A stretch of 64,000 nucleotides of DNA from Thermococcus sp. (GTDB taxonomy: Archaea > Methanobacteriota_B > Thermococci > Thermococcales > Thermococcaceae): NCBI RefSeq assembly GCF_027023865.1, contig NZ_JALVUC010000020.1, positions 1 to 64,000 of the forward strand. The letters are read 5' to 3'. A model generated the notes under the pieces. It searched no databases and was not told the origin of the DNA. It saw nothing but the letters and a program-made list of their open reading frames with translations. Shown here one piece after another: positions 2,375-4,810 of this stretch (position 1 is the first letter of the stretch; each line of letters opens with the position of its first letter). A program made the translations under genes and the position numbers.

Positions 2375-2745
2375 TTTAAACCCCGTCTTCGCTTTTCGAA
2401 CCTCATGTTATACCTCGTATTGTAATCCTCACTATAATGGTTTCTTTATGTCTGTGGGATTTTTCTGTGTGTTCCATCTTCAGGTCTTTAACTCATGGAA
2501 TTTTCTTACATTATTTTTAGGATATTGGAAAAACTCCAAGTCCTGTTTAAGAACCCCCGTTATGAAACGCTCTCATACTATCGCTTTTGTGGCTTATCTG
2601 CTTGATAAGACCCGTTTTTTGGATATCATAATTTGAGCGTTGTGATCGGTGAATAAAACTTTTTAGGAACTCTTAAATAAGATGGCGTCCAACTCTAATC
2701 AACATCCGGGTGTTACACACCGCGGGCTTAATGTGGGGTGATGGC
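2375..2745. other. Intergenic stretch, promoter only
   Basis: 370 bases, A+T-rich at first, with no supported gene. A 62-codon open frame at 2448-2636 has no ribosome site and an unlikely composition. A TATA-like AACTTTTTAGG (about 2656-2666) and a second TCTTAAATAAG (about 2670-2680) lie upstream of the winged-helix gene at 2746 and are its likely promoter region. Confidence 0.4.
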
Positions 2746-2961
2746 ATGAACGGTTCAGTGGACTTGGAGAGTGAAATCAGAGGCATGCTCCGCGCCCATG
2801 GGGAACTTAGCGTTGCGTTCATAACGAGGTTCCTCCATGAGAGGGGCCTGGACTGCACGAGGCAGGGGGTAGAAAGGGTTCTCAGGCGACTCGTTAGAAA
2901 GGGTGTGGTCGAGGCTTTCTACACAAACGGAAATCAAAGGAAGCACTACAGGTTAAGGTGA
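2746..2961 (+). CDS. Small winged-helix regulator
   Basis: 71 aa from ATG 2746, chosen because GGGGTGATG precedes it; an in-frame upstream start at 2710 has no ribosome site. The product looks like a single winged-helix domain: helix (SEIRGMLRAHG), helix (SVAFITRFLHERG), recognition helix (RQGVERVLRRLVRKG), then a wing (VVEAFYTNGNQRKHYRLR). It probably binds DNA. Its stop overlaps the GTG start of the next gene, so the two are co-translated. The position at the head of a fibre locus suggests it controls that locus, with the GTAAC repeats near 3445-3471 as a candidate target. That is inference. Confidence 0.6.
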   Translation: MNGSVDLESEIRGMLRAHGELSVAFITRFLHERGLDCTRQGVERVLRRLVRKGVVEAFYTNGNQRKHYRLR

Positions 2962-3401
2962 AAAACGTGGGGACCTCTTCGGTCATACTAGGAAACAGCA
3001 GGAGGATGCTGATGATAGAGTTCCTCCAGAACAGGGAGGGGCGAGCGGAGCTCAGGGAAGTGGTTGACTTCATTGCAGAGAAGGAAGGCGCGACCGACAG
3101 GAAGCACAGGAAGAGCGTTTACGTGAGCCTCGTCCAGACCCATATCCCGCGACTCCAGAGGGAGGGGGTTATCTCCTTCGATAGGGGCACCGTCACACTA
3201 CTGAGGATACCCGACGACGTGACCGTCTATATGGAGGTCGTGAAGAGGAATGACATAAGCTGGAGTGCCTTCTACACGGGTACCTCGCTCATCTTTCTCC
3301 TCACAGGTTTTTACCTCGGAAACGTCCACCTTATCTTCGCGTCACTCGTGTACCTCATTATCAGTTTTGTGCACCACCGGCGGGTTAGGCGGCTGGTGTG
3401 A
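2958..3401 (+). CDS. Membrane-anchored winged-helix regulator
   Basis: 147 aa from GTG 2958, overlapping the previous stop (GTGA). Residues about 15-85 look like a winged-helix DNA-binding domain (NSRRMLMIEFLQNREG, then LREVVDFIAEKEG, SLVQTHIPRLQREGV and the wing SFDRGTVTLL). Residues about 100-138 hold two hydrophobic segments (AFYTGTSLIFLLTGFYL and HLIFASLVYLIISFV) followed by a positive tail HHRRVRRLV. The layout suggests a DNA-binding domain tethered to the membrane, as in several archaeal surface-structure regulators. I cannot name a family with confidence. It is likely to sense envelope state and act on the fibre genes downstream. Confidence 0.6.
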   Translation: MKNVGTSSVILGNSRRMLMIEFLQNREGRAELREVVDFIAEKEGATDRKHRKSVYVSLVQTHIPRLQREGVISFDRGTVTLLRIPDDVTVYMEVVKRNDISWSAFYTGTSLIFLLTGFYLGNVHLIFASLVYLIISFVHHRRVRRLV

Positions 3402-3444
3402 GTTTTTCAGAGCTTCTTCAGGTAAGCGAGGCCTTTTACTGGGA

Positions 3445-3489
3445 GTAACGTAACGTTACCCCACCGGTAACCCGGAATTTACTATATAC
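3445..3489 (+). promoter_or_regulatory. Promoter with GTAAC operator repeats
   Basis: GTAAC occurs at 3445-3449, 3450-3454 and 3467-3471, and its complement GTTAC at 3455-3459. The palindrome GTAACGTTAC spans 3450-3459, and GTTACC/GGTAAC form a second inverted repeat around a 5-base spacer. A TATA box (ACTATATACC, 3481-3490) follows ten bases later. Sites just upstream of a TATA box fit an activator. The neighbouring winged-helix proteins are candidates. Confidence 0.5.
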
Positions 3490-3508
3490 CTTTGAGGCTA
3501 AGTTTGAT

Positions 3509-3656
3509 GTGGAGCAACCTTAGGGGGTTGCCCGCCTAAGGGGCACTGCTGTGATGCAGGGCCAAAGCTGTGTGTGTTCGTGGCACCGAGGGGTTCTAAA
3601 ACCCCCGCACCCAGGTTTGATCTGGTCCACGGTGCCTCCAAACGGAGGCGAAAAAA
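3509..3656 (+). promoter_or_regulatory. Structured leader RNA of the fibre gene, candidate riboswitch
   Basis: From the TATA box, transcription should start near 3509, giving a leader of about 148 bases. It can fold as: hairpin CCTTAGG/CCTAAGG (3518-3541) extended by GGG/CCC; stem GGC/GCC plus CTGC/GCAG (3542-3563); and a three-way junction closed by GGCACCG (3582-3588) with CGGTGCC (3630-3636), containing hairpins GGGGTT/AACCCC (3590-3605) and CCAG/CTGG (3611-3625). The last hairpin is GCCTCC (3634-3639) with GGAGGC (3644-3649). It buries the GGAGG ribosome site of the gene starting at 3657. Bases 3634-3636 can pair in the junction stem or the ribosome-site hairpin but not both, which is the layout of a translational switch. 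Ligand and family are unknown. Confidence 0.5.
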
Positions 3657-4259
3657 TTGAGAAAGAATCTTGCTTTGGGAATTTTTGGCCTGCTGGTGGC
3701 CTTTGGTCTCGTTTTGGGAGCCGGAGCCAACTTCAGGGATTACAACGCAGACAGGAGCGTCCACTGGAATATCGTGAGTGACGACAACGAGCTTATTGAC
3801 CTCACCCCGATCCAGCCCTACGCGTACATAAACAATGGCGGCGTCCTCGTCGTTGATATAAGCCCGAACAATCCGAACTGGCCGGGCTACGGAAACGGAC
3901 TCAGCCCGAACTCAGAGTACAACTTCGATGAGGTCTTCCAGGTAAGCAACCACCTCTGGGAGAACAACATGTCAATTGTTGTCAGGATAACCAACGCCAA
4001 CACCGCGATCCAGTTCTACGGTGCAGACATGAACGTACACGACAGTGCAAACGGCACAGTTGTTTACGCCAGTGACATGGCGAAGAACGACGTCTGCTTC
4101 ATCGTGAACAACGGCGACGCAGTTAAGGTTGGAATGGACTTTACGGTTGGAAACGACGCTACAAACACCACTCAGAGCAGTACCATCCACATACAGGCCT
4201 ACAGACTCGGCACCGAGCCGTCGGAGCTTGTTGGAAAGTGCGGACAGGGGAACAACTGA
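3657..4259 (+). CDS. TasA/DUF1102-like secreted fibre subunit A
   Basis: 200 aa from TTG 3657, eight bases after GGAGG and matching the paralogue's start. A signal peptide (KNLALGIFGLLVAFGLVLGAGA) is followed by a conserved mature N-terminus, NFRDYNADRS. Later features are DDNELIDLTPIQPY, NGLSPNSEYNFDEVFQVSNH (shared almost exactly with the next gene) and a beta-rich, Asn-rich C-terminal half with no C-terminal anchor. The protein resembles archaeal DUF1102 proteins and the bundling-pilus subunit AbpA of Pyrobaculum, which relate to bacterial TasA and polymerise by strand exchange. A dedicated signal peptidase lies downstream. I infer an extracellular fibre or biofilm-matrix subunit. The family link rests on sequence features I can see, not on a search. 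Confidence 0.68.
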   Translation: MRKNLALGIFGLLVAFGLVLGAGANFRDYNADRSVHWNIVSDDNELIDLTPIQPYAYINNGGVLVVDISPNNPNWPGYGNGLSPNSEYNFDEVFQVSNHLWENNMSIVVRITNANTAIQFYGADMNVHDSANGTVVYASDMAKNDVCFIVNNGDAVKVGMDFTVGNDATNTTQSSTIHIQAYRLGTEPSELVGKCGQGNN

Positions 4260-4273
4260 AGGAGGAATGAAGC

Positions 4274-4810
4274 ATGAATAAACTACTTGGATTGGCCGTA
4301 CTTATGATTGGAATGCTCCTAGCGGTTGGAGCGGGTGCGAACTTCCGCTACTACTCAGCGGACAGATCTGCATCATTCCAAGTCGTCTCGGACGACAACG
4401 AACTTATTGACCTTACTGCACTTCAGCCCTACGTGACCTACGACGCTGGAAAGCTCTACGTCGACATAAGCCAGTACAACCCCAACCACCCTGAGGGCGG
4501 CGGAAACGGCATGAGCCCGAACACGACCTACGTCTTTGAAGAAATGTTCCAGGTAAGCAACCACCTCTGGGAGAACAACCAGACCAACTACCCGATCTGC
4601 GTCAAGATAAAGAGCGACCACGACAACGTACTGCTCTTTGCAGGGAACTACACCAGCCCGATAGCGGGTCCAGGTGACAACATAGAGTTCACAGTCGAGC
4701 ACGGCAACCCAGTCCCCATAGGCATGATCTTCGACAACACCAACGCTACCGAGGGCATGGATCAGTTTCAGATGAGCTTTGAGGCACACGCAGGTGCATG
4801 CGGGCCGTGA
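4274..4810 (+). CDS. TasA/DUF1102-like secreted fibre subunit B
   Basis: 178 aa, ATG after GGAGG, 14 bases behind subunit A. It is a clear paralogue: signal peptide ending AVGAGA, mature start NFRYYSADRS, DDNELIDLTALQPY and FQVSNHLWENN at matching positions. The C-terminal half diverges and is shorter. Two similar subunits in tandem suggest a major and a minor or capping subunit of one fibre. A short GAGGC-TTTT-GCCTC hairpin follows the stop, which may end or weaken the transcript before the peptidase gene. Confidence 0.68.
   Translation: MNKLLGLAVLMIGMLLAVGAGANFRYYSADRSASFQVVSDDNELIDLTALQPYVTYDAGKLYVDISQYNPNHPEGGGNGMSPNTTYVFEEMFQVSNHLWENNQTNYPICVKIKSDHDNVLLFAGNYTSPIAGPGDNIEFTVEHGNPVPIGMIFDNTNATEGMDQFQMSFEAHAGACGP

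Follow-up and report, generated by a model that had tools for sequence, protein, structure and literature searches.

A conserved leader RNA upstream of a pilin-like gene in Thermococcus: a probable new on/off switch of cell-surface fibre production

The locus analyzed here lies in a 64,000-nucleotide stretch of Thermococcus sp. DNA (the window), where two consecutive DUF1102 (PF06510) genes were found on the forward strand. The first (3657-4259; Pfam E = 2e-53) starts with TTG and encodes a predicted secreted, pilin-like protein that is putatively controlled by the leader in front of it, and the second (4274-4810; Pfam E = 1.3e-55) is the next gene in a likely operon, with an ordinary GGAGG and no long leader. 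The second gene starts 15 bases past the end of the first and its AGGAGG lacks a leader hairpin of the kind described below; the ratio of the two subunits may differ if only the first gene is switched. A signal-peptidase-like gene comes after both. Directly upstream, at 2710-3401, are two small winged-helix-type genes (one Penicillinase_R-like, the other a DUF7344 gene with membrane segments), which are candidate regulators of the pilin operon, and a similar gene end precedes the promoter in relatives. The window also has a PemK/MazF-type toxin gene at 1320-1724, which follows an unassigned gene (605-1294) and possibly forms a toxin-antitoxin pair with it.

The original prediction had described the first DUF1102 gene as coding for a fibre subunit. 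The AlphaFold model of its product (pLDDT 82) had a hydrophobic N-terminal helix and a beta-rich domain, and its best match in the PDB was AbpA, the bundling pilin of Pyrobaculum (7UEG; E = 4e-5), with FimA pilins next. However, the identity with AbpA was 12% and the TM-score only 0.32-0.35, and such low scores make a bundling-pilus-like fibre subunit a plausible rather than a proven product, so that a filament role of DUF1102 is a prediction. Sequence comparison of the protein with the PDB gave no close entry, and no mention of DUF1102 was found in the literature searched.

The region between the promoter and the TTG start appeared to be a long, structured and non-coding leader. The TATA box (TATATA) at 3483-3488 on the forward strand predicts a transcript start near 3509-3511, and the match of a covariance model (R1; E = 7.7e-28) spanned exactly 3509-3656 on the same strand, i.e. 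148 nt from the transcript start to the base before TTG; the two agree with the leader of about 148 bases that had been predicted. The fold of 3503-3665 (-68.5 kcal/mol) had a z-score of -2.86, with 4 of 200 shuffles as stable, which, together with elements conserved in 34 species, confirmed that the leader is structured. An upstream ORF or a coding leader was ruled out, since in-frame stops occurred at differing places and leader lengths were not constant modulo 3; a 10-codon ATG frame at 3507-3539 of the window genome was not shared by the relatives examined. A leader of this length had been regarded as unusual for Thermococcales. It is indeed uncommon: the T. kodakarensis median is 16 nt (PMC4247193), and that of T. 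onnurineus is 12 nt, with 84.6% of leaders within 0-50 nt (PMC5316973). It is not exceptional, however, because approximately 20% of T. kodakarensis mRNAs have leaders of 50-300 nt (PMC4247193). Upstream of the TATA box, 3441-3471 contains the repeats GTAAC, GTTACC and GGTAACC, and a GTAAN(1-14)TTAC pair, which is probably a transcription-factor site, was present upstream of 33 of 34 long-leader orthologues and 66 of 70 orthologues in the family. A strict two-box pattern (GGTAAY, 4-10 bases, GTTACC) had zero matches in the genome, the site at 3441-3471 included.

The distribution of the leader was analyzed in 94 Thermococcaceae (the genome of the window and 93 relatives) and in a phylum set of 115 genomes. 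Searching with the leader DNA gave matches in 36 of the 94 genomes, and the DUF1102 orthologue could be located in 85, whose upstream regions were then read. Homologous leaders were found in 34 of the 94 genomes, all of Thermococcus, each directly before the orthologous DUF1102 gene. Their alignment was anchored by hand on three motifs, namely a hairpin close to the 5' end (P1), a long-range stem (P2) and the Shine-Dalgarno (SD) sequence. The covariance model, built on 25 of these leaders, recovered exactly the 34 (E = 1e-19 to 1e-34; one copy per genome), including the nine outside the model-building set, and the next-best match anywhere had an E-value of 0.006. No leaders beyond the 34 were found by the model in the 115 phylum genomes, and in neither the 94 family genomes nor the phylum set did the element occur in front of another gene. 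A simpler SD-hairpin pattern occurred once per genome at the DUF1102 locus, with scattered and seemingly chance matches elsewhere. No Rfam family matched the window or the leader, either at the gathering score or with the limit relaxed to E = 5, in line with the earlier remark that the leader was not recognizable as any known archaeal riboswitch.

P1 (GCAACCU-uagg-GGGUUGC; 3514-3531, forward strand) had the consensus GCRRCC..GGYYGC and started 29-34 bases past the first TATA base in the 34 genomes, and thus lies at, or a few bases from, the predicted 5' end of the transcript. Its pairs were retained in 26-34 of the 34 leaders (the inner pairs k = 0-4 in 33-34), and RNAalifold recovered it as well. 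Four of its seven pairs had changed on both sides: A-U/G-C exchanges occurred at two pairs and also at the loop-closing pairs. P1 could either belong to the domain enclosed by P2 or shield the 5' end, and a stabilizing role at the 5' end may exist alongside the switch.

At the other end of the leader, the Shine-Dalgarno sequence GGAGG (3644-3648, forward strand) lies 8 bases before the TTG start and can be compared with the consensus GGDGRD reported for both T. kodakarensis (PMC4247193) and T. onnurineus (PMC5316973). The predicted final hairpin over it was found in the sequence at 3634-3649 of the same strand (GCCUCC-aaac-GGAGGC), and none of the 34 genomes had fewer than five pairs in it: 31 had six C-G, G-C or U-A pairs, one had a U-G pair and two had five pairs. 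All cells of this hairpin were paired, and its loop varied in length and sequence around an invariant stem, in which covariation is impossible and hence uninformative on pairing.

The same anti-SD strand has a second partner far upstream. Just past P1, the anti-anti-SD strand GGGGCACUG (3540-3548, forward strand; consensus GRGGCACUG, including the SD-core letters GRGGC) pairs with CGGUGCCUC (3630-3638, forward strand; consensus C(A/G)GUGCCUC, a short way ahead of the SD), which is common to both states and in which UGCCUC was invariant and changes 5' of it were compensated. A stem competing with the SD hairpin had been proposed before, and one is present, with nine pairs instead of seven and sharing five bases with the hairpin (GCCUC, 3634-3638) instead of three. 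Because GCCUC is common to both, P2 and the SD hairpin cannot both form fully, and both pairings were kept in all 34 species, so the mutual exclusion of the two states originally proposed was borne out.

P2 pairs k = 0 to 5 were formed in all 34 leaders, in the parts both shared and unshared with the SD hairpin, and the outer pair k = -1 was G-U or A-U in all 34 (after correction of the anchor in one genome, G072), with k = -2 being G-C in 28. In the 25 distinct sequences compared, the paired share of P2 cells was 89%, against 29-61% when partners were slid. Two-sided changes occurred in four P2 pairs, whereas shuffles gave 2.0, with 20 of 500 reaching four, and the covariation score was attained by none of 500 shuffles, a significance that is shuffle-based, not tree-aware, and leaves relatedness in. 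Variation at k = 4 (C-G, U-A, U-G) and k = 5 (U-A, C-G, U-G) included, on the gene tree, one concerted same-branch double change each; the remaining variation was mostly one-sided half-steps through G-U, with few independent double changes. The covariation in relatives on which the earlier proposal had been made to depend is therefore present but modest, with four two-sided pairs each in P1 and P2.

The interior of P2 (3549-3629, forward strand) varied from 44 to 95 nt across species. We looked in the 34 leaders for an interior helix common across clades and for a conserved ligand-binding core, and found neither such a helix nor a shared fold inside P2; only short strands next to P2 recurred (YGUUGA on the 5' side; CUUCC or CUGUUCC, then CCAC, on the 3' side). 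Given this variability of length and of helices, no conserved ligand pocket stands out. The three-way junction of the original prediction did not hold as a conserved feature: the interior helices differ by clade, the minimum-energy fold lacks the closing stem of the junction, and the junction appears to be one fold of one lineage. The stem GUGGA:UCCAC that closes the minimum-energy fold of this leader was also rejected as not conserved, as relatives starting with UUGAGC or UAUGAGC cannot form it. Reading the sequences showed a second possible anti-SD partner, GGCACCG at 3582-3588, only in the window and in G049, the relative closest to it.

The DUF1102 orthologues of some Thermococcus and of the other genera in the family had leaders of about 48-79 nt without P2. 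Most of these contained one 5' hairpin in which pairing persists despite changes of sequence (for example GGGUCUC/GAGACCC, GAGCCCUC/GGGGGCUC and GUGCCUC/GGGGCAC), and one genus (g4) has a further hairpin, CCUUCG..UGGAGG, that also hides the SD. It appears that a structured leader is general for this gene and that the two-state version is an elaboration of one group.

When each state was enforced in folding models, the SD-hairpin state was favored on average by 4.1 kcal/mol at 37 °C and 2.0 kcal/mol at 85 °C, values obtained with standard parameters far from their calibrated temperature and hence approximate for an organism whose growth temperature is near 80 °C. P2 was favored in three of the 34 leaders at each temperature. 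In the leader of the window, the cost of forcing P2 was 7.1 kcal/mol at 37 °C, falling to 4.4 kcal/mol at 85 °C, and P2 was absent from its minimum-energy fold. In these models the gap between the states is within the reach of a ligand or a protein, and a default OFF state with a reachable ON state would be the natural reading.

Based on the conserved alternative pairings and the modeled energies, we consider it fairly likely that the leader is a cis-acting translational switch of the pilin-like gene, with the SD hairpin as the OFF state and P2 as the ON state. Switching itself, the assignment of the ON state and the kind of trigger are what we infer from sequence comparison. Points against this reading are the small number of independent double changes in P2, an interior with neither sequence nor fold in common between clades, and the lack of the element in relatives outside these Thermococcus species. 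In the OFF state, C(A/G)GUGCCUC would pair with GGAGGC just downstream and hide the ribosome-binding site, and in the ON state the same strand would pair with GRGGCACUG 45-95 bases upstream, so that the anti-SD is taken and the ribosome-binding site freed. Since the OFF hairpin is the more stable one alone, the ON state would need help, which may come from a binder or from the fold of the P2-enclosed domain, or the ON state may be short-lived during transcription. Given the size of the modeled preference for the hidden state, a stabilizer of the P2 domain could turn translation on. That a dedicated metabolite or protein signal stabilizes P2 and frees the ribosome-binding site, which would represent a new archaeal switch class for surface filaments, is a tentative proposal that may well prove wrong. 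If it is true, the fast-changing interior would imply sensing by the P2-adjacent junction strands or by a co-evolving protein.

Different triggers would fit the same pair of states. SD, anti-SD and anti-anti-SD are arranged as in the expression platform of translational riboswitches, and conserved strands flank the P2 stem, as expected if a classical small-molecule aptamer lay inside P2; nevertheless, we regard such a riboswitch as quite unlikely, because in the family and phylum genomes searched the element occurs at one locus only and never before metabolic genes, and its clade-specific interior argues against a classical conserved aptamer, aptamers of known classes usually being the best-conserved part. 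With no conserved core in the interior, a metabolite is no more likely to be the trigger than a protein or an RNA-folding signal. The same switch could have a protein trigger, in which an RNA-binding protein on the P2 domain or P1, perhaps made upon filament assembly or in response to cell-surface state, sets the SD hairpin. Leaders bound by an autogenous or dedicated protein usually occur at a single locus per genome, as this one does, the combination of a variable interior and short conserved strands beside P2 would suit such a protein, and the L7Ae leader that switches SD access (PMC6298567) is an archaeal precedent. Yet L7Ae itself is unsupported as the partner, as no conserved k-turn (3-nt bulge, tandem G-A pairs) emerged and a loose k-turn motif was found in five of the 34 leaders compared with 2.0 expected from shuffles, and at no shared position; overall, protein control appears possible but somewhat unlikely.

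Other readings give P2 no regulatory role. The hairpins, above all P1, might guard an abundant pilin mRNA against 5'-3' decay, with the SD hairpin merely tuning the translation rate and P2 being a by-product. The position of P1 at the predicted 5' end and the covarying 5' hairpin that orthologues of other clades keep in short leaders of about 50-80 nt without P2 are consistent with such an mRNA-stability leader, which we consider unlikely, because it leaves unexplained why the anti-SD has a far upstream partner in all 34 leaders, with compensated changes. Opening of the SD hairpin by heat, as in an RNA thermometer, is very improbable: the gap between the states does shrink between 37 and 85 °C and the three P2-favoring leaders exist at either temperature, but for most sequences the folding models kept the SD largely paired at 80 °C, and a conserved P2 partner would be needless.

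The proposed translational switch resembles known systems in part. Like translational riboswitches, it has three strands, one of which pairs with either of the others and thereby hides or frees the SD, whereas it is a single-locus archaeal leader without a conserved aptamer core or an Rfam match (E up to 5). The autoregulatory L7Ae leader (PMC6298567) is likewise an archaeal RNA whose structure governs access to the ribosome-binding site; however, its free RNA is open and is closed by the protein via a k-turn, whereas the DUF1102 leader has no conserved k-turn and its closed state is the stable one in our models. Candidates for crcB (fluoride) and preQ1-like riboswitches, reported in Thermococcales (PMC4247193), are likewise transcribed in Thermococcus, as structured leader elements or as small RNAs, but they concern different genes, and the window has no riboswitch-family match in Rfam. 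The same T. kodakarensis transcriptome study noted no direct in vivo support at that time for archaeal attenuators or riboswitches (PMC4247193).

Regulation by structured leaders is poorly documented in archaea. The element described here is compact and conserved in 34 species, its two-state design is clear, and the bases to mutate are defined; because the genus includes the genetically tractable T. kodakarensis, both leader-controlled translation and the control of surface fibres would be directly testable.
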